DNA of 64,000 nt from Prosthecobacter sp. (GCF_020439865.1 NZ_JAGRPF010000113.1:1-64000); one strand, 5' to 3'; shown: positions 7,270-46,180, counted from the first letter of the stretch. Numbers and translations are program-made. Notes: generated from the sequence alone by a model not told the origin.

Positions 7270-7330
7270 GCGGAAGCAATGATCATGCGGGGCAGACACG
7301 GGCAGTTCAAGGCCGGAGACGTTCGCGATT

Positions 7331-7349
7331 GACCACCGGGGAGGTGGTC
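7331..7349 (+). other. Short hairpin in the 5' region of the DUF4412-like gene
   Basis: Perfect 7-bp arms GACCACC and GGTGGTC with a 5-nt loop, 18 nt before the ATG at 7368. No T-run follows, so it is not a terminator. It could be an operator or a translational control hairpin, or chance. The intergenic space between the divergent permease and DUF4412-like genes is only 98 nt. Confidence 0.25.
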
Positions 7350-7367
7350 GGTTACCGTCCGGACATC

Positions 7368-8033
7368 ATGAAAACGCTCGCCCGCTCGGTTGTTGCCCTT
7401 CTTTTTGCCGCCACGCTTGCCAGGGCCGACTGGGTGCTCGTTCAAAAGTCCGTCACGGACGGCAAGGAAAAGGAGGTGACGACCAAAATCAAAGGAGAGC
7501 AGGCGCGCGTGGACATGGGAACGCAGATGAGCGTGATCGTGGGAGAGCAGGGCATGGTGATGCTCATGCATGCTCAGAAGGTGATGATGAAGATGGATCT
7601 GGCGACGATGAAGACCGCGATGGAGATGGCGGGCAAGGCCTCCGCCGTGCTCGACAAGCAGCCCGCCGCCAAACCAGTGGCGACCGGAGAGAAGGATAAG
7701 GTCGGCCAATGGGATACGGAGATTTTCACGTGGGAAGGACAGATGGGGAAAGGCCGCTTCTGGGTGGCGAAAGATTTTCCGAAGCATGCCGAAATCAGCG
7801 CCATCAGTGACAAGCTTGGCCAGGTGGTGGGCAAGTCGATGGCGGGACTGGCACCGCAGGCGTCTGATTTCGACGGCATGGTGGTGAAGTCCGAAGTGAC
7901 GATGATGGGCAAGAAAGTCTCGTCGAGCCTGGTCTCTGCGAAGGAGGAGGATGTGGATCCGAAGGAGTTCGCCCCGCCAGACGGCTACAACGAGATGAAG
8001 ATGCCCATGCTGCAGGGTGCAGGGAAGCCGTGA
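7368..8033 (+). CDS. Secreted DUF4412-like protein
   Basis: A 221-residue protein with a clear Sec signal peptide (about residues 1-19, ending LARA). The mature part alternates beta strands with Met-rich segments (MVMLMHAQKVMMKMD near residue 65), which resembles the DUF4412/LolA-like fold found in Bacteroidetes and Verrucomicrobia. The role is unknown; LolA-like folds bind lipids. ATG at 7368 is selected because it begins the signal peptide; the frame is open 13 codons further upstream. It ends one base from the convergent ketosynthase-like gene. Confidence 0.7.
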   Translation: MKTLARSVVALLFAATLARADWVLVQKSVTDGKEKEVTTKIKGEQARVDMGTQMSVIVGEQGMVMLMHAQKVMMKMDLATMKTAMEMAGKASAVLDKQPAAKPVATGEKDKVGQWDTEIFTWEGQMGKGRFWVAKDFPKHAEISAISDKLGQVVGKSMAGLAPQASDFDGMVVKSEVTMMGKKVSSSLVSAKEEDVDPKEFAPPDGYNEMKMPMLQGAGKP

Positions 8034-8034
8034 T

Positions 8035-9060
8035 TCACGGCGTCAGCACGCATGCGTAGGCGGCGGTGTTGGTTCCGGGCATGGAGATGACCACAGGCTG
8101 CTGTGTTTCGCGCGCAGCAAGCGTTCCGAGCACGAGCTGCAGGGCGGATGCGGCTCCCATGCTCTCGCCCAAAACTTTTTTGGGGCTGAGCACGGCATTC
8201 CAAGACACTCCGGACCATGCGGCGGTTTCTGCGCGATCGAGTCGCACGATGCCACTGCGGTCGTCGATGAGCGTGGCGTTGCCGTTGAATTTCACGCGAG
8301 TTTCTGCCGCGAGTTCGGCGAGCAACGTGCCGCGTTCACTCCATGAGAGGTAGGACATCGGGCCGAGGATCTCGCTCATAAGCATTCCGTCACCAGTGGC
8401 GGATAGCAGGAGGGCTCCGGCGCCTTCTGACGCGATATGTTTGGGATGGTAGTAGGTAAGCGCTTCGGCGCTGAGCCAGTCACATTCTTCGGCGGCGATG
8501 ACGAGGCATTCTTCTACAACGCCGCTGCTAATCCAGAATGCGGCGGTGTCGAGGGCCTCCATGATCGAGTTCGGACTGCCCACCAGTGTGCTGACAGCAC
8601 CGTCGATTCCGAGAAACGAGGCAATGTGCGAGGCCGGCGCATTAAAGACGGTCTCGGGGAAGATGAGCGGGCTGGCCTGGGCGGGGTTTTGCAGCACTTC
8701 GTGATAAAAACGGCCCGTGTAGTTCACGCAGCCGTTCATCATGACAAAGAGAATGCCCAGTCCTCGCGGCGGGGCCGCCGGATTGTGTCCGGCATCGGCC
8801 AGTGCTTCCAAAGCTGCGGACACGGAGTAGCGGGTGATCGCACTGGAGCGGCGCAGACGTGGATGGCGGGTGATTTTTTCGGGCGGCACGGCGGGGACAA
8901 GGCGCGTTTCGCAGGGCCAGGTGCGGTCGTCGCCAGGACGCGTACATTTCGCGGAGGGCAGCGGTTTTCCAGCACGCACTGCCTGTTGCATGGCTGCAGC
9001 GCTCCATCCGGCGGCGCTCACGGCGCCGACGCCGCGGATGCGGATGTTCTGCGCGTTCAT
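8035..9060 (-). CDS. Ketosynthase-like protein without active site (chain-length-factor-like)
   Basis: A 341-residue thiolase-fold protein of the beta-ketoacyl-ACP synthase family. It lacks the catalytic residues: the nucleophile region reads STLVGSPNS, where active enzymes have a Cys in ACAS-type context. The first histidine motif (NSHGTGTP in its partner) is not found, and the second reads LGESMGAAS with Glu in place of His. Loss of all three residues beside a full ketosynthase is the pattern of chain-length factors in type II polyketide and aryl-polyene systems. Its start overlaps the end of the active ketosynthase by 4 nt (ATGA), so the two are translationally coupled and probably form a heterodimer. 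Confidence 0.85.
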   Translation of the reverse strand: MNAQNIRIRGVGAVSAAGWSAAAMQQAVRAGKPLPSAKCTRPGDDRTWPCETRLVPAVPPEKITRHPRLRRSSAITRYSVSAALEALADAGHNPAAPPRGLGILFVMMNGCVNYTGRFYHEVLQNPAQASPLIFPETVFNAPASHIASFLGIDGAVSTLVGSPNSIMEALDTAAFWISSGVVEECLVIAAEECDWLSAEALTYYHPKHIASEGAGALLLSATGDGMLMSEILGPMSYLSWSERGTLLAELAAETRVKFNGNATLIDDRSGIVRLDRAETAAWSGVSWNAVLSPKKVLGESMGAASALQLVLGTLAARETQQPVVISMPGTNTAAYACVLTP

Positions 9061-10280
9061 GCGGCCCTCCTTTCCATCACGAGCGTGGCGTTCGTGCCGC
9101 CAAAGCCGAATGAGTTGGTCAGCGCATATTGGAGACTGGCGCGTCGAAACTGCCGCACGAGATCAAAGTGCACGGCGGGATCCACCTCGCGCACGTTAAG
9201 GCTCGCCGGCAGCCACTGACCCTGCAGAGCCATCAGGCAGATCACGGCTTCGACGGCGCCCGCACCGCCGAGCAGGTGACCCATGGCAGACTTGGTGGAG
9301 CTGACCGGGATGTGTTTCACGGCATCTCCCGCCCATGCGGCTATGGCGGCGGCTTCGGCCACATCATTGAAAGGCGTGCCAGTACCGTGGGAGTTGATAT
9401 AGCCGATTTGGTCCGGTGAAACTCCCGCCTGGGCACAGGCGGCGGTCATGGTGCGAATGGCGGCCTTTCCTTCGGGATCGGGCTGCGTGAGATGATGGAG
9501 GTCGGTGGCGGTCGAGTAACCGGCCACGTCTCCCAGCGCATCGCTTCGACGCACGTCTTCCGCCTCGAGAAGCATGACGGCAGCTCCTTCACCGAGCGCC
9601 AGTCCGTCGCGCTGCGCGTCAAAGGGACGCGGGATGCCGCTGGGGGCGAGGGCATGCAGACTGTCGAACCCGGCGAACACGAGACGTGCGAGCGCATCGT
9701 AACCGCCGGCGAGCACGCGTTTGGCGCGTCCCGAACGGATCATGTCAGCCGCCCAGCCGATGGCGTTGGCACCGGAGGCGCAGGCGTTTGAAACGATGAC
9801 CACCGGTCCACGCCAGTCGAACTCGGTGGCGATGCTGGTCATCTGCCGCTGCTGCTGATAGTACTCCGCCCGCGAAAGCTGCGACGGTATGCGGCTCGTG
9901 CCGTGGCGTGCCTTTTCAAAGTAGGCTTCGCCCAGAGGCATCGCTCCGGCCGAGGTGCCGATGACCATGGCATCGATCCCCTGCATGTCATGACGACCCG
10001 CCTGGGCCAAAGCCTCACGGATCGCGATGAGGAGCATCTGTGTGCCGCGGTCGATGAAAGGCTGCTTGTGCGCAGGGACACGAAGAAATGGAGTTTCCTC
10101 CGGGAGATCGACCACGCCGGCGGTCTTGGCAATGAGGGCGCTCGTGTCAAACAGATCGACCGGCCTGAATGCGATGCGGTCCGCCGCCAGCGACTGCTCG
10201 TTCGCCTGCCAGCCGATGCCCAGCGGCGAGACGATCCCGGCTCCGGTGATGGCGATGCGCTGGCGAGAAGGGGAAGGCAC
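9057..10280 (-). CDS. Beta-ketoacyl-ACP synthase II family (FabF-like), active
   Basis: About 407 residues with a complete Cys-His-His site: NACASG (Cys near residue 167), NSHGTGTPFND and AMGHLLGGAGAVEA. It catalyses decarboxylative condensation of malonyl-ACP with an acyl primer. A second, typical fabF lies at 44177-45427, so this copy is probably dedicated to the surrounding cluster. The start is uncertain. GTG at 10280 puts the domain motif RIAITGAG at residue 7; a TTG at 10331 would add 17 residues and overlap the candidate 5' region of the divergent AMP ligase. Confidence 0.92.
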   Translation of the reverse strand: MPSPSRQRIAITGAGIVSPLGIGWQANEQSLAADRIAFRPVDLFDTSALIAKTAGVVDLPEETPFLRVPAHKQPFIDRGTQMLLIAIREALAQAGRHDMQGIDAMVIGTSAGAMPLGEAYFEKARHGTSRIPSQLSRAEYYQQQRQMTSIATEFDWRGPVVIVSNACASGANAIGWAADMIRSGRAKRVLAGGYDALARLVFAGFDSLHALAPSGIPRPFDAQRDGLALGEGAAVMLLEAEDVRRSDALGDVAGYSTATDLHHLTQPDPEGKAAIRTMTAACAQAGVSPDQIGYINSHGTGTPFNDVAEAAAIAAWAGDAVKHIPVSSTKSAMGHLLGGAGAVEAVICLMALQGQWLPASLNVREVDPAVHFDLVRQFRRASLQYALTNSFGFGGTNATLVMERRAA

Positions 10281-10359
10281 TGGGGAAACAGGATGAGATT
10301 CGTCGTGTGTAGGGTTGAACTGCCAACTCAAACGTTCATTCTACGACACGGCGCGGCGC

Positions 10360-11577
10360 ATGGTTTACGCTTCGTCGCCAGGACTGCAAATGTTTGGTGA
10401 ACGCTGGGATCGTATTGTGGCTGAGCGCGGCGCGCAGGCCGCCCTGTATCTGGCTGACGGCAGCGCCACGACCTTCCGCGAACTTGACGCCGAGGCGCGT
10501 GCGGCGAAGCCTGTGGGCGATCACGTTTTGGTTCAAGGTGATGCGCCGGCGATCATGCGTTCGCTGCTGGCCGGACTGCTTCACGGTGTGCCGGTGCAGC
10601 TGGTGGAAAAGGACCGTCAACGCCGGGTTCCCGTCATTCCTCCGCCTGCAGGCACAGCTTTGATCAAGCAAACCGTCGGCGGTTCAGGACTGCGCCGCTG
10701 CCAGTTTTTCACCCTCGATCAAGTCGCCGCCGATGTGGACCGCCTGCATGCAGCACTGGATCTCGGCACACTTGGTGTGGGCGTGGCGGCGATTTCATGC
10801 GCGCATTCATTTGGTCTGACGATGACCGTGCTGCAGACGCTGTTCAACGGCGTGCCGACCTGCTTTGCGCCGCAGCCATTCGCTCAGCCGCTGATGGAGG
10901 CGATGAGACATCACACACGCGTTTTTCTGCCCGGAGTTCCGGCTTTGTGGAAAGCCTGGCTTATGGGCGAGGTGCAGTTTGGGAACGTCAGCCTCGCGAT
11001 CTCGGCGGGATCTCCGCTCACGCTCAAACTGGAGCAAATGGCGATGGAGAAACACGGCCTGAAGATTCACAACCTGTATGGGACGAGCGAGTGCGGGGCC
11101 GTTTCGTGGGATGCCTCGGATTCGCTGCGCACCGACGCGCGCGATTTGGGCGCACTGCTGCCGGGGGTGGAGACACAGATCGATGGCTCCGGACGTCTCA
11201 TCGTCTCCAGCAGTTCGGTCGGGCTCGGCTACGACGAGATGATTCCGGGGGAACGCTATGGAGAGGGTGTGTTCGTCACGAGTGATCAGATCGACTCGAG
11301 CGGAGAACGTTTGATGTTCGAGCAGTGCATCGGAGGTGGCATCAATGTGGCCGGTCGCAAGTTGAGCCCGGCTGAGATTGGTGAAAAGATTCGACGTGCC
11401 GCAGGACTGACGGCAGTGACGATTCGCGGTGCGACGAGCCGCGATCCCGAGCGTTGCCAGGACATCGTGGCGGAGCTGGAGATGCCCAGGGCGGAAATTG
11501 ACGCGGCTTTTAAAGTCAGGGCCTGTTCTCTGCTGGCGCCATGGGAAGTGCCGCGTAGATGGACGGGCAAGCCATGA
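10360..11577 (+). CDS. Free-standing AMP ligase (acyl/aryl-CoA or -ACP synthetase-like)
   Basis: A short ANL-superfamily adenylating enzyme of 405 residues. The best motif is NLYGTSECGAVSWDA (A5 type). The phosphate loop is degenerate (KQTVGGSGLRR) and the usual YRTGD aspartate motif reads VTSDQIDSSG. The protein ends at the A10-like RRWTGKP, so the conserved C-terminal lysine is the second last residue. Such short ligases load aryl or fatty primers in aryl-polyene and flexirubin pathways. Starts at 10360 and 10390 (MFGERWDR) are both possible. It is divergent from the ketosynthase pair and overlaps the methyltransferase by 4 nt. Confidence 0.82.
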   Translation: MVYASSPGLQMFGERWDRIVAERGAQAALYLADGSATTFRELDAEARAAKPVGDHVLVQGDAPAIMRSLLAGLLHGVPVQLVEKDRQRRVPVIPPPAGTALIKQTVGGSGLRRCQFFTLDQVAADVDRLHAALDLGTLGVGVAAISCAHSFGLTMTVLQTLFNGVPTCFAPQPFAQPLMEAMRHHTRVFLPGVPALWKAWLMGEVQFGNVSLAISAGSPLTLKLEQMAMEKHGLKIHNLYGTSECGAVSWDASDSLRTDARDLGALLPGVETQIDGSGRLIVSSSSVGLGYDEMIPGERYGEGVFVTSDQIDSSGERLMFEQCIGGGINVAGRKLSPAEIGEKIRRAAGLTAVTIRGATSRDPERCQDIVAELEMPRAEIDAAFKVRACSLLAPWEVPRRWTGKP

Positions 11578-12236
11578 CTATGCCGTTGTCCGCAGCCATT
11601 CTGAAGCGCATCGCCTTTCTCTGTCCGAAGCGCTGGGATCGCTGTTACACGCTGATGAAGCTGGCGACGGACCCGGTCTATGCGGCCGTGGGGAAAGAAC
11701 TCGGTGGATCAACGCTGCCGGTGCTCGACGTCGGCTGCGGGATCGGTCTGCTGGCGTTTTACCTGCGTGAATCAGGATTCACGCAGGACATTTCAGGCTT
11801 CGACTATGACGAAAAAAAAATCTCCAGCGCGCGAGCGATGGCTGTGTCAGGCGGTTATGAAGGCCTGAGTTTTATGGCGGGTGACGCGCGCAGCGGGCTG
11901 CCGGAATTCAGCGGTCATGTGGTGATCCTCGACATCCTGCAGTTTTTCAAACGCGAGGAGCAGGCGGCGTTGCTGAAAGCGGCGGCGGCCCGGGTGGCGG
12001 AAGGGGGGCGGCTCATCATTCGCACCGGCTTGCAGGATGATTCGACACGTTTCCACGTCACCGTGATCGGAGACTGGGTCGCCAGGCTGACGCTTTGGAT
12101 GAAGGAGGCGCCGGTCTGCTATCCTGATGGCGAATTGTTCAGGTCCGTGCTCGGGAACGCCGGCCTGAAGGTTTGCGTGAAGCCGTTATGGGGCGGCACG
12201 CCGTTCAACAACCATCTCGTCGTCGCTGAACGATAG
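11574..12236 (+). CDS. Class I SAM-dependent methyltransferase
   Basis: A 220-residue methyltransferase with motif I VLDVGCGIGLLAF near residue 50, an acidic ribose-binding residue in GFDYDEKKI, and VVILDILQFF as motif IV. The start ATG at 11574 overlaps the ligase stop (ATGA), a strong sign of coupled translation; an in-frame upstream ATG at 11559 is less likely. The acceptor is unknown, but a methyltransferase is part of the usual aryl-polyene gene set (head-group or ring methylation). The last 51 nt overlap the 3' end of the convergent deacetylase gene. Confidence 0.88.
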   Translation: MTMPLSAAILKRIAFLCPKRWDRCYTLMKLATDPVYAAVGKELGGSTLPVLDVGCGIGLLAFYLRESGFTQDISGFDYDEKKISSARAMAVSGGYEGLSFMAGDARSGLPEFSGHVVILDILQFFKREEQAALLKAAAARVAEGGRLIIRTGLQDDSTRFHVTVIGDWVARLTLWMKEAPVCYPDGELFRSVLGNAGLKVCVKPLWGGTPFNNHLVVAER

Positions 12237-13013
12237 ATCAGCAGGCGGGGTGGAGCACTCGAGGCCGCTTTCGGCCATCATGGTGGCCACGGACCGGGCC
12301 ACTTCGACGGCAACGGGAGTGCCTTCGTGGATCAGGACGATGGAATCCGCCTTTAACCGGCGGCGGATACGACGCGTGATCAAATCCACGTTTTGAGCTA
12401 CGCCGTCGAAGCCCCGTGCACTCCAAATCAGCATCCGCAGGCCCAAAGCCTGCACGATGAGGGAGGTGAACATGTTGTGATGACCTGCCGGCGGACGGAA
12501 AAACCGCGGCGGATGTTCCGGGCAGATCGACATCAGCGTTTCCTGACAGCCTGAAATCTCGCGCCATAACTGCGGTGCCTGGAGCGACCAGAACATCGCG
12601 GCCGGATGCGTCTGCGTGTGATTGCCGATCTCATGACCACGGGCTACGATTTCACGCACGAGGTATGGGTGCTTTGCCGCGCGCTCGCCGACGAGAAAAA
12701 ACACGGCTTTGAGACGATGCTCGTCAAGGATGTCCAAAATGGCCGGAGTGTGCTGCGGATGAGGGCCGTCATCGATGGTCAGCAGCGTGCAGTTTCCACC
12801 GGACCGCAGTTGTTTGATCATCGGACCAAACAGCGCACAACGTGGCACCAGCGTGCCGATCATGACCGTGGCCATGACGCTGATGAACAGCGCACCCGCC
12901 GCCACAAACTGCCCGAACCAGACCAGCAAGCCGACGATCAACAAGGGAAGCAGCGAGAGGGCACGGCGAGCACGCGAGCGCCGCATACAGCGTGAGCGTA
13001 CTTCCGCATTCAT
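12186..13013 (-). CDS. Membrane-anchored polysaccharide deacetylase (NodB family)
   Basis: A 275-residue CE4 carbohydrate esterase with two hydrophobic segments near the N-terminus (about residues 18-58) and a NodB domain. Motifs: LTIDDGPHP (motif 1, Ile in place of the usual Phe), GNHTQTHP (metal-binding His pair), FFRPPAGHHN (motif 3) and VLIHEG near the end. It removes acetyl or similar groups from N-acetylated sugars. The start at 13013 overlaps the acyltransferase stop by 4 nt, so both are cotranscribed. The 3' end overlaps the methyltransferase by 51 nt on the other strand. Confidence 0.88.
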   Translation of the reverse strand: MNAEVRSRCMRRSRARRALSLLPLLIVGLLVWFGQFVAAGALFISVMATVMIGTLVPRCALFGPMIKQLRSGGNCTLLTIDDGPHPQHTPAILDILDEHRLKAVFFLVGERAAKHPYLVREIVARGHEIGNHTQTHPAAMFWSLQAPQLWREISGCQETLMSICPEHPPRFFRPPAGHHNMFTSLIVQALGLRMLIWSARGFDGVAQNVDLITRRIRRRLKADSIVLIHEGTPVAVEVARSVATMMAESGLECSTPPADLSFSDDEMVVERRAAP

Positions 13014-13945
13014 GCCGGATCGCGGGTGACGAGCGGTTCAAACACAAACCATTGATCCCAGTGCCGCAGCAGAAAACGATGCATCACCGGCAGCCACGCG
13101 GCGCCGATCTCTTCAGCCTTGGGCTTGCGTCCGCCCGGATGAAACGGTTTGCCGATTTCGATGCGGTAGGAGAGTCGTCCTCTGCGGCTCAGAAACACGG
13201 GATAGCATGGCACTCCCGTCACTTCGGCCAGCACGAGCGGTCCGCGCGGGATCTGATAGGTCAAGCCGTCGATGCTGGCCTGGGTAGGGGCCACTTCTCC
13301 CATCACGCGGTCGCCCTGAACGCAGACCACCTCACCCGCGAGCAGTTTTCGGCAGAGTTCGATGCCGAGGTGACTGTCGGGTTTGTTGTAGTGGATGTGC
13401 AGGTTCGGCTCGCGGCTTTCCTCTCCGCGCAGCTCCTTCTCACGCAGCTCTTGCAGCGACGCCGAGGACTCGGGCATGCGCACGGTGTGGATCGGGCGGC
13501 CAAACTTGCGTGCGAAGAGGCCGGCGCCGATGTCGTAGTTGCCCGAATGAAGGGTGAAGATCAGCGCGCCGATGGGTTCGTTCTGCAGCGCTTCGAACTC
13601 ACCCTTGCCGATGATTTCCCAGTCCACTTCGCGGTCGAAATGCAGGCACCACAACCGGTCGAGATAGGTCAGGGCGAACTGGAGGAACACCTGGAAGCCG
13701 GCGATGCAACTCGACCCTTTGCCGGGAATGAGAGCACTGAGATTGGCGCGCACCGCCTCACGCTGAGGCACCGCCAGCAGGTAGATCACCGCCGTCACCG
13801 GATAGGCGAGCAGAGTGAACACGGGAGCCGGAAGCCAGCGCATCCCTGACAGGAGCATCCGGGTCCAGAACGCATCATGCAGATCCATGCGGGCAGCAGG
13901 AGTTTCAGGCTGCGGCTGGTGGGTTGCAGTTTCGGCGGATGGCAT
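13010..13945 (-). CDS. LPLAT-family acyltransferase (LpxL/HtrB-like)
   Basis: A 311-residue acyltransferase related to lipid A late acyltransferases. The catalytic HX4D motif is seen as HSGNYD near residue 136 and the second block as VCVQGDRVMGE near residue 208; IPRGPLVLAEVTGVP supplies the substrate-binding part. One hydrophobic segment near residue 45 should anchor it to the inner membrane. In aryl-polyene clusters such enzymes attach the polyene acid to a lipid or sugar anchor; a lipid A role is the alternative. It forms a two-gene unit with the deacetylase and is divergent from the halogenase-like gene. Confidence 0.85.
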   Translation of the reverse strand: MPSAETATHQPQPETPAARMDLHDAFWTRMLLSGMRWLPAPVFTLLAYPVTAVIYLLAVPQREAVRANLSALIPGKGSSCIAGFQVFLQFALTYLDRLWCLHFDREVDWEIIGKGEFEALQNEPIGALIFTLHSGNYDIGAGLFARKFGRPIHTVRMPESSASLQELREKELRGEESREPNLHIHYNKPDSHLGIELCRKLLAGEVVCVQGDRVMGEVAPTQASIDGLTYQIPRGPLVLAEVTGVPCYPVFLSRRGRLSYRIEIGKPFHPGGRKPKAEEIGAAWLPVMHRFLLRHWDQWFVFEPLVTRDPA

Positions 13946-14034
13946 TATTTAGAGATGAGCGAATAGGGGCGGGAGACGATCTGTTTCGACCGTCACGACC
14001 CCTCCGACAACTGACTTTTTCACCGCACGCCCTC

Positions 14035-15585
14035 ATGATTTCTTCCACCGCTGAATATGACGTGGTCATCATGGGCGGCGCGTTTTCCGGTGCGGCCGCC
14101 GGGATGATGCTCAAGCGTGAGCACCCCGACATGCGCATTCTCATCGTGGAGCGCACGGTGCAATTTGACCGCAAGGTGGGGGAGAGCACCTCCGAGGTGG
14201 CGGGCTGCTTCCTGACCCGCGTGCTGCATCAGGGCGCGCACCTATGCGCACATCACTATCAGAAGCACGGGCTGCGTCTCTGGTTCTGCAAAACCCCGCA
14301 GGATTCCGTGGACGACCTTACCGAGATCGGTCCGCGCTATCAGTCACGTCTGCCGACTTTCCAGCTCGACCGTGCCCTGCTGGACGAGCATCTGCTCAAG
14401 GAAGCCTGTGATTTCGGCTGCGAGCTGATGCGTCCGGCCACGGTCAAAACGATCGCGCTTTCAGAAGACGCTGCGCCGCACACGCTCGAAATCACACCGA
14501 AGGAGGGGCCGATGCGCACGGTGACCGCACGCTGGCTCATCGACGCCTCCGGCAAGGCCGCCGTGCTCGCGAAAAAGCTCGGCCTGCAGAGCACCATCGA
14601 CGACGAGCATCCCACCTCGTCCATCTGGTGCCGCTTCCGCAACGTCAACGGGCTCGACAGCTTCAAGAGCCGCAGCATGCACCCTAAGCTCATGGAGAAT
14701 GTGCGAGGCCTTCGCACTTCATCCACCAACCACCTCATGGGCCGCGGTTGGTGGTGCTGGATCATTCCGCTGTCCGATGGCAGCTACAGCGTTGGCGTCA
14801 CGTGGGACCGCCGCTTTTTCTCGCTGCCGGAGGGACCTTCGCTCCTCGCGCGTCTGCAGGCACATTTGATGACACATCCTGTCGGCAGGCTGATGTTTGA
14901 AAACGCGGTGCCGGTCGAGAACGACACCTTCTACTACAAGAACCTCGCCTATCGCGCCGAGCGGGTTGCAGGTAACCGCTGGATCATCGTCGGGGATGCG
15001 GCTGGTTTCATGGACCCGATGTACAGCCACGGTCTCGACTTCTGCGGTCACACGGTTTACGCCGCATGCGAGCTGGTGAAGAAGAACCTGGCAGGCGAGG
15101 ACACACAGGCGATCACGGATTATCTGAACATGGCCTATCCGCGCAGCTGGCGCATCTGGTTCGAAGCGCTCTACAAGGACAAGTATGCCTACATGGGCGA
15201 TGCGGAGCTGATGAACGCTGCGTTCCTTCTGGACCTCGCCACGTACTTCATCGGTCCGGTGCGGCTGGTTTACGCACATCCGGACTACGAATGGACGCGC
15301 ATGCCCTACGACGGGCCAGCGGGCACGCTCTTCGGCAATTTCATGGCATTCTACAACCGCCGGCTCGCCTCACTCGCACAAGAGCGGATGCGCAAAGGCA
15401 TCTACGGCCGCTGCAACAACGGCCACGTCTGGCTGCCACGGCAGAGTTTCTCACCGGACACCAGCGCGGTCCGTCTCCTGTGGGATGGTCTCAAAGTCTG
15501 GCTCAAGGCGGAGATCACCACCTGGCTCGCGCCGACGCCCGCCACCTCACCGGCGATGATGGTGGAAAAACCGGCGGAGGCCTGA
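14035..15585 (+). CDS. Flavin-dependent halogenase-like FAD oxidoreductase
   Basis: A 516-residue FAD enzyme. The dinucleotide fold is near the N-terminus (MGGAFSGAAAG, with Ala at the middle Gly) and the second FAD motif is VGDAAGFMDPMYSHG near residue 321. Two halogenase signatures are present: WCWIIP (WxWxIP, W240) and a lysine, K77, in QKHGLRLWF, close to the catalytic lysine position of PrnA-type enzymes (about 79). GESTSE corresponds to the GEAT segment. The geranylgeranyl-reductase-like monooxygenase family is the alternative. ATG at 14035 is chosen because the FAD motif starts about 10 residues later. The neighbourhood suggests pigment biosynthesis. Confidence 0.82.
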   Translation: MISSTAEYDVVIMGGAFSGAAAGMMLKREHPDMRILIVERTVQFDRKVGESTSEVAGCFLTRVLHQGAHLCAHHYQKHGLRLWFCKTPQDSVDDLTEIGPRYQSRLPTFQLDRALLDEHLLKEACDFGCELMRPATVKTIALSEDAAPHTLEITPKEGPMRTVTARWLIDASGKAAVLAKKLGLQSTIDDEHPTSSIWCRFRNVNGLDSFKSRSMHPKLMENVRGLRTSSTNHLMGRGWWCWIIPLSDGSYSVGVTWDRRFFSLPEGPSLLARLQAHLMTHPVGRLMFENAVPVENDTFYYKNLAYRAERVAGNRWIIVGDAAGFMDPMYSHGLDFCGHTVYAACELVKKNLAGEDTQAITDYLNMAYPRSWRIWFEALYKDKYAYMGDAELMNAAFLLDLATYFIGPVRLVYAHPDYEWTRMPYDGPAGTLFGNFMAFYNRRLASLAQERMRKGIYGRCNNGHVWLPRQSFSPDTSAVRLLWDGLKVWLKAEITTWLAPTPATSPAMMVEKPAEA

Positions 15586-15588
15586 CCC

Positions 15589-16344
15589 TCATTCGGCCAC
15601 GAAAAACATGGCCGCGAAGGTGTTCGGCGTGAGCACGGCATCAGGTTTCGGATCCACCAGCATGCTGGAAATGTCGCCATCGAGGTAGAGCGCATCCTGG
15701 CAGCCGAGATGGAGAAAGAACCTGGTGAGCTGATGAGACGTCACACGTCCTTTCACCGAATCGTCGCGGTCGCTCATGGCAAAGATGATTTGTCCGTCCT
15801 TTTTGCGCACGCCAACCGCGTTGCGCAGGCGCCTGTTGGGTGAGTTCACGTTGAAGGCCGGGTGAATGACTCCGTTGCGGACCATGAGCGGTCCAGACTG
15901 GGTGGCGAGCCGCGGTTTGAGGCCGCTTTTCTCAAATTCCTCCGCCTCCATGACGCCGGGGCCGGTTTGGTCGTCGAGATAGAAGACACCGTTGGGCTTG
16001 AGATAAAAATTGCCCTCCCCGTCACGCAGGCTCAACGGCACCAGCTCGCGACCGGCGCAGATCGTCAGCCCGCAGGGCTTCGGGCCTCGCTCGAAGATGC
16101 CGGCGTTGGTGGCAAAGACGATCTGCTTTTTGCGGGAGTTGAGCTGTGTGCGCAGGCCGTTGAGATCACCCAGCGGTTTGTCGTTTTCATCCAGCCAGGC
16201 CAGCTGCAGCCGAGGCCAGTCGGCCCGGTCCACACGATAGAGGTGATAGCGGGCGCCTTCGTAGTCCACCGTCTCCGCGCCGTGAAGGTGCGAGGTGATC
16301 GAGGCGCAGCCAAAGGCCGCCAGCAACCAGTGTGGAAATCTCAT
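15589..16344 (-). CDS. Secreted phosphodiester glycosidase family protein (DUF2233/NAGPA)
   Basis: A 251-residue protein with a signal peptide from ATG 16344 (ending near HLHGAE). The NAGPA/DUF2233 fold is shown by ATNAGIFERG near residue 79, LKPNGVFYL near 116 and LYLDGDISSML near 222. The human homologue removes GlcNAc from mannose-6-phosphate; bacterial ones cleave phosphodiester-linked sugars on wall polymers or have unknown substrates. A second, divergent paralogue lies at 39148-39924. It is convergent with the halogenase-like gene, with 3 nt between stops. Confidence 0.85.
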   Translation of the reverse strand: MRFPHWLLAAFGCASITSHLHGAETVDYEGARYHLYRVDRADWPRLQLAWLDENDKPLGDLNGLRTQLNSRKKQIVFATNAGIFERGPKPCGLTICAGRELVPLSLRDGEGNFYLKPNGVFYLDDQTGPGVMEAEEFEKSGLKPRLATQSGPLMVRNGVIHPAFNVNSPNRRLRNAVGVRKKDGQIIFAMSDRDDSVKGRVTSHQLTRFFLHLGCQDALYLDGDISSMLVDPKPDAVLTPNTFAAMFFVAE

Positions 16345-16421
16345 GCCACAGGATGAATCATTGAGCGGATCGAGCACGAGATATTTGCAGCACGTTCCTC
16401 CCCGGGCCATGATGCGCCCTC

Positions 16422-17507
16422 ATGTCCAGCAGTCTCGGCACACTTTTCCGCATCAGCACCTGGGGCGAATCCCATGGCCCCGGCGTAGGCGTCGTCATCG
16501 ACGGTTGCCCGCCGCGCATTCCGCTCACGGTGGAAGACATTCAGGCCGAACTCGACCGCCGCCGTCCCGGCCAGAGCAAGATCGTGACACCACGTAAGGA
16601 AGAAGACAAGGCGGAGATCCTCTCCGGAGTGCTCGACGGCCTCACGCTCGGCACGCCGATCGGCATTTTCGTTCGGAACACAGACCAGCGCCCTTCGGCC
16701 TACACGGAAATGCAGCAGGCGTACCGTCCCAGCCACGCCGATTACACCTACGATGCCAAATACGGCATCCGCGCCGTCTCTGGAGGCGGGCGGTCGAGCG
16801 CAAGGGAAACGATCGGCCGAGTTGCCGCTGGTGCGATTGCCCGCAAAATGCTGCAGCAGTCGCTCGGCGGTTACGAGTGCCTCGCCTACGTTAAAACGGT
16901 GCAGCATATCCACGCTGAGGTGCCAGCAGGCGCAGCGCTGAATTCCTCCGTCATCGAGTCGAACATCGTCCGCACCTGCGACCCTGTGGCGGCGGAGAAG
17001 ATGATCGAACTCATCGAAAAAATTCGCAGCGAAGGCAACAGCGTCGGCGGCGTGATCGAATGTGTCGTGCGCGGCGTCCCGGCCGGGCTCGGTGAACCTG
17101 CGTTTGACCGCCTCGAGGCGGATCTAGCCAAGGCGATGCTCAGCCTGCCTGCAACGAAGGGGTTTGAGATCGGCAGCGGTTTCGGCGGCACCACGATGAC
17201 CGGCCTGGAGCACAACGACGAGTTTTACATGGACGGCGACAAGGTCCGCACCCGAACCAACCGCAGCGGTGGTGTCCAGGGGGGCATCAGCAATGGTGAG
17301 GAGATCGTTTTCCGAGTGGCCTTCAAACCCACGGCGACGGTGCTGCGCGAACAGAAGACCGTCACGAACACGGGTGAAGACACGACTTTGTCGGCCCGTG
17401 GTCGTCATGACCCCTGCGTGCTCCCGCGCGCTGTTCCGATGGTGGAGGCGATGGTGCATCTCGTCCTTGCCGATCACTTCCTGCGTCAGCGCGCGATGAG
17501 GGGGTGA
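16422..17507 (+). CDS. aroC: Chorismate synthase
   Basis: A 361-residue chorismate synthase, which converts EPSP to chorismate with reduced FMN. Family signatures are all present: the first one, [12 protein letters not shown], near residue 12; [14 protein letters not shown] near residue 124; and [17 protein letters not shown] near the C-terminus. The length is normal for the bacterial enzyme. It supplies the aromatic precursor pathway, but lies alone; no other aro gene is near. The stop overlaps a GTG start of the next gene. Confidence 0.98.
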
Positions 17508-44176: not shown

Positions 44177-45427
44177 TCAGCCTTCGAACTTCTTGATCAG
44201 CAGCGCGGCGTTGTGGCCGCCGAAACCGAAGGAGTTGCTCAGTGCGGCGTTCACTTTCGCCGGACGGGCGGTGTTTGGCACGATGTCCACGTCCACTTCC
44301 GGGTCGAGGTTTTCGACGTTGATGGTGGGCGGGATGACCTGTTCTTGGATCGCGTAAATGGAGGCAACGAGTTCGACGCCGCCAGCGGCGCCGAGAAGGT
44401 GACCGGTCATCGATTTCGTCCCGGAGACGAGCAGACCGTTGGTCGCATACTCACCGAAGGTGCGCTTGATGGCGCGCAGTTCGCACAGGTCACCGACTGG
44501 GGTCGAGGTGGCATGAGCGTTGATGTATTGGATGTCGGTTGTGTTGAGCTTGGCGTGGCGCAGGGCCATCTCCATGCACTTGCCGGCGCCGAGGCCTTCC
44601 GGATGCGGCGAGGTGAGGTGATAGGCGTCAGCCGTGGCGCCGTAACCGGCGAGTTCGGCGTAAATCGTCGCGCCGCGCTTCTTGGCGTGTTCGAGTTCTT
44701 CGATCACGACGACACCGGCACCTTCGCCCATGACGAAACCGTCGCGATCCTTGTCCCACGGGCGGGACGCCTTTTCAGGATCGTCGTTGCGAAGGCTGAG
44801 GGCCTTCATGTTGGCAAAGCCGGCCAGACCGCAAGGACGGATCGACGCTTCCGCACCACCTGCGATCATCACGTCGGCGTCACCGAATTTGATCATGCGC
44901 CAGGCTTCACCGATGTTGTTGTTGGAGGTCGCGCAGGCGGTCACGATGACCATGTTTGGTCCCATGAAGCCGTATTCCGCCGCGATCATGCCGCTGGCGA
45001 TGTTCGTGATCATCATTGGGATCAGGAACGGCGAGACACGGCCCGGGCCCTTGTTCAGAAGGATCTCATACTGGGTCTCGAGCGTGCCGAGACCGCCGAT
45101 ACCGCTGCCGACCATGACGCCGACGCGATGCGGGTCGAGGCTGTCAGGATTCAAGCCGGAGTCCTTGGCGGCCATTTTCGAGGCGGCCATCGCGAACTGG
45201 AAGTAGCGGTCAGCGCGGCGGGCGTCCTTGTGATTGTTGAAATACTGCGTGGGATCGAAGTCCACCACCTCGCCGGCGATTTTGCAGTCGTACTTTTCCG
45301 TGTCCATCGACTGGATGCGACGGATGCCGCTCTTGCCGGCCAGAAGGTTCTTCCAAAAATCGTCCTTGTTGTTGCCGTTTGGGGAAACGACTCCCATGCC
45401 GGTGATGACGACGCGACGCTCGCTCAT
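44177..45427 (-). CDS. fabF: Beta-ketoacyl-ACP synthase II
   Basis: A 416-residue housekeeping KAS II for fatty-acid elongation. It has VITGMGVVSPNGN at the N-terminus, the active Cys in VTACATSNNNIGEA, His in NAHATSTPVGD, and Lys/His in TKSMTGHLLGAAGGVE. It differs from the cluster copy at 9057, which has shifted motif spacing. acpP, its usual partner, is not adjacent. ATG at 45427 is selected because the frame, though open 173 codons upstream, is antisense to the LolA-like gene there. Confidence 0.96.
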   Translation of the reverse strand: MSERRVVITGMGVVSPNGNNKDDFWKNLLAGKSGIRRIQSMDTEKYDCKIAGEVVDFDPTQYFNNHKDARRADRYFQFAMAASKMAAKDSGLNPDSLDPHRVGVMVGSGIGGLGTLETQYEILLNKGPGRVSPFLIPMMITNIASGMIAAEYGFMGPNMVIVTACATSNNNIGEAWRMIKFGDADVMIAGGAEASIRPCGLAGFANMKALSLRNDDPEKASRPWDKDRDGFVMGEGAGVVVIEELEHAKKRGATIYAELAGYGATADAYHLTSPHPEGLGAGKCMEMALRHAKLNTTDIQYINAHATSTPVGDLCELRAIKRTFGEYATNGLLVSGTKSMTGHLLGAAGGVELVASIYAIQEQVIPPTINVENLDPEVDVDIVPNTARPAKVNAALSNSFGFGGHNAALLIKKFEG

Positions 45428-45496
45428 GTGTGTGTGTTTGGGGGGTTGAATTGGGGGGTGAGAGAACACGGTTTGCAGGGTGGGGCAAGGGAAAAC

Positions 45497-46180
45497 ATGG
45501 CCGCGAAGGGCTTGAGACAGGGGCGATTCTGGTGTCTGGCTGGAAGCGTGATTCGTCTGCCAACCGTTCCCGCCATCATGCTCTGTCTGACGCTGTCCGT
45601 TCAGGCGGCACCGGACGTTTCCTCCATTCCTCCTGTGTTTCGCGACTGGATGGTTGCTCAGAGAGACATCGGCAACATCAAGGTGGCTTTCGAACAGACG
45701 CGCACCACGCCGGCGCTCAAAGACCCCGTCCATGCCCGCGGCAGATTCTGGCGCATGGCCGACGGCCGATTTCGTCTGGAACTGGGGTCGCCCGCCACGA
45801 TGATCCTTGTCTTCGACAAGGAAACGGTGCGTCTCAAGGAAAGCGCGGACGCCCCCTGGCAGACCCTGAAGCCAGACGACAGCCGGGTGCGCATGTGGAT
45901 GAAGTTTCTCAGCGGGCGGGAGATGGACCCCGAATCGCTCACCCAAAACTTCGCCCTCAGGGTCACCCAGCAGGAGAAGACTTTCGTCACGGTGGCCATG
46001 ATTCCGCGTCCGCTGCTGATCAAAAAGTATCTCAGGCAGCTCGACATGCAGATCGAACCAGGCGGCAGGCGCCTCTTGGGATTCCGGGTGGTGCAGGGGG
46101 ATGGATCGACACTGCTGCTGAATTTTGGTCCCCCGGAGAAAGTCACGGGGGATCCCTCCTCGCTGTTCCAGCCCCAGTAG
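45497..46180 (+). CDS. LolA-like periplasmic lipoprotein carrier
   Basis: A 227-residue protein of the LolA fold (LolA-like/outer membrane lipoprotein carrier). The mature part has the family strands FEQTRTTPALKDPVHARGRFW and FRLELGSPATMILVFDKE near residues 65-115 (landmarks only), with LLLNFGPPEKV at the end. A signal region ends near SVQAAPD; either ATG 45497 or 45578 (MLCLTLSVQA) can be the start, and the second gives a classic signal peptide. It is divergent from fabF and 42 nt upstream of the VWA/TonB-like gene. Confidence 0.75.
   Translation: MAAKGLRQGRFWCLAGSVIRLPTVPAIMLCLTLSVQAAPDVSSIPPVFRDWMVAQRDIGNIKVAFEQTRTTPALKDPVHARGRFWRMADGRFRLELGSPATMILVFDKETVRLKESADAPWQTLKPDDSRVRMWMKFLSGREMDPESLTQNFALRVTQQEKTFVTVAMIPRPLLIKKYLRQLDMQIEPGGRRLLGFRVVQGDGSTLLLNFGPPEKVTGDPSSLFQPQ

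Follow-up and report, generated by a model that had tools for sequence, protein, structure and literature searches.

Among described systems, the pathway for arcuflavin, a xanthomonadin-dialkylresorcinol hybrid, of Azoarcus sp. BH72 (arcA-X) contains all seven gene types of the locus considered here, a likeness judged by described gene content (PMC3949708). Within Verrucomicrobiota, arylpolyene clusters were the second most frequent type of biosynthetic gene cluster in one soil survey (PMC8692599), and one has been reported in Oceaniferula flavus (PMC9865893); these reports come from antiSMASH-type scans that recognise clusters by co-localisation (PMC8692599, PMC9865893), and the literature that we searched contained no experimentally characterised arylpolyene cluster from this phylum. 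Here we analyse a seven-gene block at positions 8035-15585 of a 64,000-nt stretch of Prosthecobacter sp. DNA (GCF_020439865.1 NZ_JAGRPF010000113.1:1-64000, the window hereafter), which belongs to an assembly of 242 contigs that is ~94% complete. We consider it very probable that the block encodes a portion of a yellow-pigment (aryl-polyene-lipid) pathway whose genes are dispersed, with a xanthomonadin/arcuflavin-like gene set. The kind of pathway is already known; its dispersal, a gene fusion and its partners are new.

An earlier note made from the window had listed seven open reading frames (ORFs) with their domains, and all of these were found where it had placed them. Together with a neighbouring gene whose membership of the pathway is tentative, they are:

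7329-8033, plus strand: secreted DUF4412 protein with a LolA/LolB/LprG-like fold (PF14371); likely start ATG 7368; tentative pathway member
8035-9060, minus strand: KS2, a ketosynthase (KS)-like protein of 341 aa without an active site, resembling a chain-length-factor (CLF) partner (PF00109 only, 26.6 bits)
9057-10331, minus strand: KS1, an active-type ketosynthase (PF00109 and PF02801); start uncertain, TTG 10331 or GTG 10280
10315-11577, plus strand: ApeH-like AMP-dependent acyl/aryl ligase (PF00501); likely start ATG 10360 or 10390
11559-12236, plus strand: S-adenosylmethionine (SAM) methyltransferase (Methyltransf_31/25)
12186-13013, minus strand: NodB/CE4 deacetylase with hydrophobic segments at its N-terminus (PF01522, 109 bits)
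13010-13945, minus strand: LpxL-type acyltransferase (LPLAT), akin to the acyltransferase portion of ApeJ (PF03279)
14035-15585, plus strand: halogenase-like flavoenzyme (PF04820); likely start ATG 14035

An aryl polyene pathway is expected to combine an active KS with a Cys-less KS-like partner, and both are present. KS1 retains the complete set of catalytic residues (Cys184, His315, Lys347 and His352), while in KS2 the Cys position is occupied by Pro163 and the last His is replaced by Glu, which bears out the initial description of one active and one active-site-less enzyme. At the KS2 site most of the family shows Ala-Gln, and the clade of the window protein shows Pro-Asn. KS1 and KS2 form a single ORF in 18 loci, three of them (L109, L112 and L167) starting at contig ends; this natural fusion indicates that the two proteins function as a pair. 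The fused ORFs are mostly 740-840 aa long and are seen in one genus lineage and a few others (L067, L068, L070, L111, L113-L118 and others). In a maximum-likelihood tree KS1 fell within a Verrucomicrobiota clade (97/99), separate from the genome's own FabF (window ~44.2-45.4 kb), which clustered with E. coli FabF (98/97). Judged by this phylogeny, KS1 is distinct from the housekeeping FabF encoded at that other position of the window. That FabF gene adjoins the only PF03548 LolA gene of the genome (45674-46171), the two spanning window positions 44177-46180.

The block had been described as lacking an acyl carrier protein (ACP), a ketoreductase (KR), a dehydratase (DH) and a transporter; this is true inside 8035-15585, but all of them exist elsewhere in the same genome. 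Contig C229 carries a KR (63%), an ACP (ACP1, 60%), an LPG-synthase-type membrane protein and a patatin, and C233 carries a DH (46%), a PlsC-like acyltransferase and a glycosyltransferase (GT, 58%), while a candidate MMPL orthologue with 30% identity was found on C49. Pfam agrees with each of these assignments. The dedicated ACP, KR and DH expected of an aryl polyene pathway are thus present on C229 and C233, and they are clustered with the KS genes in relatives. ACP1 matches ApeE better than AcpP. The ApeJ-like GT and acyltransferase expected for a lipid anchor are likewise present: the GT matches E. coli ApeJ at 3e-58 to 4e-58, and the LPLAT does so at E = 3e-21 to 4e-21, its family hidden Markov model (HMM) scoring ApeJ at 66 bits against 20 bits for LpxL. 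The best NCBIfam match of the GT was polyprenyl-phospho-GalNAc synthase, at 56 bits against a cut-off of 370. The note had posed a choice between supply from fatty-acid synthesis and a new product; given dedicated ACP, KR, DH and GT genes and a candidate MMPL gene at other loci, and single clusters in relatives, this dilemma falls.

Another contig, C128, encodes ACP2, a 444-aa protein, FADx, AMP2 and FAD2, which make up a second ACP/ligase/flavoenzyme module, and parts of it sit within the full cluster L086. In L051 9326-14854 (G000:C128) and L055 9676-11225 (G000:C67), ACP2 is followed by an acyltransferase/condensation-like protein, which in C128 has no Pfam match. A ketosynthase-plus-ACP locus on C133 was considered as the missing partner and set aside, as its ketosynthase clusters with enzymes of the FabB type and the surrounding genes are different; the locus encodes a type III polyketide synthase-like protein (assigned by eye), a FAD monooxygenase-like protein, a methyltransferase, the ACP and the FabB-like ketosynthase (L047 9564-14364, G000:C133).

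We compared the block with 20-kb regions of relatives using tblastn; gene calls in the other loci were made with a simple codon model, and orthology cuts were set by eye. The same seven genes recur in the same order and orientation in L056-L062 at 66-87% identity, with an insertion between the methyltransferase and NodB genes in L061 and only partial matches to the halogenase-like and LPLAT genes in L062. L064 keeps the order at 61-75% identity, and three further genomes have the block (L093, L095, L096), giving about eleven congener loci. The proposal that these genes are not neighbours by chance is upheld by this kept order. In at least 8 congener loci the DUF4412 gene adjoins KS2. More distant loci retain a core of KS1, KS2 and the AMP ligase, often followed by KR and ACP1, and among loci L056-L168, where some genomes are counted twice, KS2-KR and KR-ACP1 are adjacent pairs in 26 and 25 cases. 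Members of other families within the order have the seven genes clustered with ACP1, KR, DH, GT, the PlsC-like enzyme, MMPL, LolA, the LPG-synthase-type protein and further flavoenzymes; such larger clusters are L078 (a stretch that ends before any halogenase-like gene), L086 and L077/L145, with a subset in L165. The methyltransferase gene adjoins the GT gene in several relatives.

Co-occurrence was scored in 190 genomes of the order, with cuts of about E<=1e-20 for KS2, E<=1e-65 for KR and E<=1e-20 for GT (a weak match in G112 was left out). KS2 was found in 89/190 and KR in 88/190, 85 having both; GT was found in 77/190, in 73 of them together with KS2. Fisher tests, which ignore shared ancestry, gave p = 7.5e-45 for KS2-KR and 2.8e-31 for KS2-GT. 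The usual (not obligatory) single-cluster arrangement of aryl polyene genes is found neither in the present genome nor in single-contig relatives. In the latter the parts lie far apart: KS2, KR and GT are at 1.553, 0.993 and 1.634 Mb in G101, at 2.860, 4.562 and 2.916 Mb in G104, and at 3.828, 3.608 and 0.837 Mb in G124. Hence the dispersal of the pathway genes is real. In G049 KR adjoins KS2 and GT is 0.5 Mb distant.

The block itself is laid out as two divergent gene pairs facing each other. KS1-KS2 (minus) and ligase-methyltransferase (plus) diverge at ~10.3 kb, and LPLAT-NodB (minus) and the halogenase-like gene (plus) diverge at 13.95-14.03 kb across an 89-bp gap. The latter gene had been drawn as 13924-15585, overlapping the LPLAT gene, a reading that has to be abandoned as it begins at a spurious TTG. 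ATGA overlaps, said to tie the genes in pairs, exist at KS1/KS2 (TCAT on the plus strand, 9057-9060) and LPLAT/NodB (13010-13013), but not at ligase/methyltransferase, where the overlap is 19 bp with no ATGA, or at methyltransferase/NodB, a tail-to-tail overlap of 51 bp. No sigma-70-like promoters were detected in the block with a sigma-70 model that is uninformative for this phylum. Adjacent to the block, a NAGPA-domain protein and aroC (window 15589-17507) stay beside it in most congeners.

The flavoenzyme is typified by a catalytic Lys in a KxG motif (KHG here) and a WxWxIP motif (WCWIIP at 277-282, ORF numbering), both conserved in its family. A HMMER alignment had suggested Arg in place of this Lys, which was ruled out by the family alignment, where the Lys of KxG is invariant. 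Its FAD motif, GGAFSG, departs from the canonical GxGxxG, the third Gly being Ala/Ser across the whole family. The first PDB matches of its AlphaFold model (pLDDT 85) were the phenol halogenases PltM and CtcP (E 4e-28, TM ~0.65-0.70), and a Cytophaga flavoprotein, 3nix, was also a good structural match. By modelled fold and motifs we file it as halogenase-like and not as a proven halogenase; it may halogenate, and monooxygenase action is possible. A plasmid collection held no close kin of this protein, the best match having ~30% identity. In two distant loci a radical SAM protein lies beside the halogenase-like gene (L146 5298-6341, L165 6039-7061).

The NodB protein has the full CE4 motif set (TIDDG 79, HTQTH 132, RPPAG 173, IHEG 228). 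The aryl polyene lipid of Xenorhabdus reportedly carries galactosamine-phosphate-glycerol, and by analogy NodB could be the source of the amine in a galactosamine-type head. The methyltransferase probably methylates the head group. For the DUF4412 protein, an AlphaFold model (pLDDT 71) found its best PDB folds in the LolA family (E 1.7e-5, TM 0.4-0.5), and it is possibly a periplasmic lipid carrier of the pathway.

As a source of the aromatic starter, both UbiC and an aromatic amino-acid lyase were dismissed: neither UbiC nor a PF00221 lyase was found in the ~94% complete genome. It has one FkbO/Hyg5-type chorismatase (L240 9058-10278, G000:C51; PF21168 at 33 bits with a cut-off of 27, PDB 5ag3 at 2e-31, FkbO at 5e-28), a type found in 0/14 control genomes. 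In the arcuflavin loci, 3- and 4-hydroxybenzoate are products of the XanB2-type enzyme (PMC3949708). A chorismate synthase gene, aroC (named by blast labels), adjoins the block at 16422-17507, as it does in congeners; its product makes chorismate, the presumed precursor, and its position is no more than a lead to a possible tie with the pathway.

The presence of the genes, their key motifs, synteny, fusion and co-occurrence are shown by these data, from which substrates, order of steps, product, halogenation and sugar identity are inferred, the proposed route being as follows. The FkbO/Hyg5/XanB2-type chorismatase (C51) would turn chorismate into hydroxybenzoate, which the AMP ligase of the window would load onto the dedicated ACP (C229). 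The KS1-KS2 heterodimer, with the KR (C229) and DH (C233), would extend it to a conjugated polyene, and the methyltransferase and halogenase-like enzyme would decorate the phenol ring. On a lipid, the GT (C233) and NodB may assemble a head of deacetylated amino sugar, which the LPLAT and the PlsC-like enzyme (C233) would acylate, using the polyene and a fatty acid as acyl groups. Finally, MMPL (C49) and a LolA-like carrier are predicted to transfer the product to the outer membrane.

Several observations weigh against this assignment. Links to Ape proteins are weak for the AMP ligase (family HMM to E. coli ApeH, 2e-8), the methyltransferase and the DH, and the MMPL match, at only 30%, lies at a contig end. 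ApeO, on a long branch, groups weakly with KS1 (85/76) in the tree, and FabF/FabG of E. coli outscore ApeO/ApeQ with the family models of KS1 and KR; the Ape link of KS1 and KR therefore rests on context. A profile comparison of KS2 with the half-size E. coli ApeC detected no homology (probability 1.5%). The C51 chorismatase sits among unrelated PSD1/PSCyt2- and DUF1501-like genes, so that its putative link to the pathway is by function and not by position. Furthermore, nine close congeners (G037, G045, G069, G077, G088, G094, G097, G111, G152) keep the block and KR with no GT match at 1e-20, the sugar step being lost or replaced there.

Some of these points would suit a non-aryl product: a fatty-acyl lipid, polyunsaturated or cyclised, for which a KS-CLF system would use an aliphatic starter and which would lack an aromatic head. 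Aliphatic starters are used by some type II KS-CLF systems, and both the weak ApeH link of the ligase and the lack of linkage between chorismatase and block favour such a lipid; we nevertheless regard it as quite unlikely in view of the ring-directed enzymes, namely a methyltransferase and a flavoenzyme nearest phenol halogenases in fold, and of the resemblance of GT and LPLAT to ApeJ. A flexirubin-type pathway, with a tyrosine-derived 4-coumarate starter and a polyene esterified with dialkylresorcinol, has KS, deacetylase, acyltransferase, GT, LolA and exporter genes (PMC3992019) in common with the present set, the last two as candidates here, and the genome's own KR matches FlxB at 203 bits, under the cut-off of 340. 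Judged by its starter genes, with no aromatic ammonia-lyase found and a chorismatase present instead, such a pathway is very unlikely. The earlier suggestion of an aryl-polyene or flexirubin kind accordingly survives in its aryl-polyene, xanthomonadin-like half, which gene set, synteny, co-occurrence and chorismatase favour. That housekeeping fatty-acid and envelope enzymes merely came to lie together has next to no chance of being right: several of the proteins do come from large protein superfamilies, and NCBIfam scores mostly fall short of the cut-offs, but synteny across families, the fusions, the co-occurrence and the clear separation of KS1 from the FabF of the same window speak against it.

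Going beyond the dispersed aryl-polyene-lipid pathway, we put forward, tentatively and as somewhat doubtful, that aryl-polyene lipids built from chorismate, halogenated and anchored through an amino sugar, form a class of their own in Verrucomicrobiota. One lineage would use the natural KS-CLF fusion, a second activation module (ACP2, AMP2, FADx, FAD2 and the 444-aa protein) would add another acyl/aryl unit, and the pathway would be functional though scattered over at least 5 loci. As co-occurrence and the single-contig genomes show, the genes of a complete set can be dispersed, so that genome mining based on co-localisation misjudges such sets, and would score that of this genome as incomplete. 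The natural KS-CLF fusions are single-chain versions of the heterodimer, useful for studies of chain-length control, and the pigment chemistry of the phylum becomes directly testable.

Compared with other known systems, the flx/dar locus of Chitinophaga pinensis couples type II polyene synthesis with a deacetylase, acyltransferase and GT, as here, and with a LolA and an exporter that have candidate counterparts here, whereas its flexirubin uses a tyrosine ammonia-lyase (PMC3992019), for which no PF00221 counterpart was found in our genome. E. coli CFT073 apeA-R (L088) has in common with our set the ACPs, KR, DH, ligase, methyltransferase, KS-CLF principle and GT plus acyltransferase, and its MMPL and LolA have candidate counterparts here (PMC8253772). 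It differs in that ApeJ unites the GT and LPLAT that are two separate proteins here, in that ApeC is half-size against the 341 aa of KS2, and in being without the NodB and halogenase genes present here. The xanthomonadin cluster of Xanthomonas and the pigment cluster of Lysobacter enzymogenes contain, as here, a KS with a CLF-like partner and a dolichyl-phosphate-mannose-synthase-like GT (PMC3691225). A halogenase occurs in Xanthomonas but not in Lysobacter (PMC3691225), and the Lysobacter pigment genes form one cluster, unlike ours (PMC3691225). The Lysobacter CLF-like protein needs a Gln (PMC3691225), whereas at the residue next to the Cys site KS2 of the window has Asn and most members of its family have Gln. 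The arcuflavin loci share with the pathway described here an ACP, reductase, dehydratase and GT, and their LolA, exporter and XanB2-type chorismatase have candidate counterparts in the present genome (PMC3949708); their polyene genes are split in two loci (PMC3949708), and those of the present genome are spread over at least 5.

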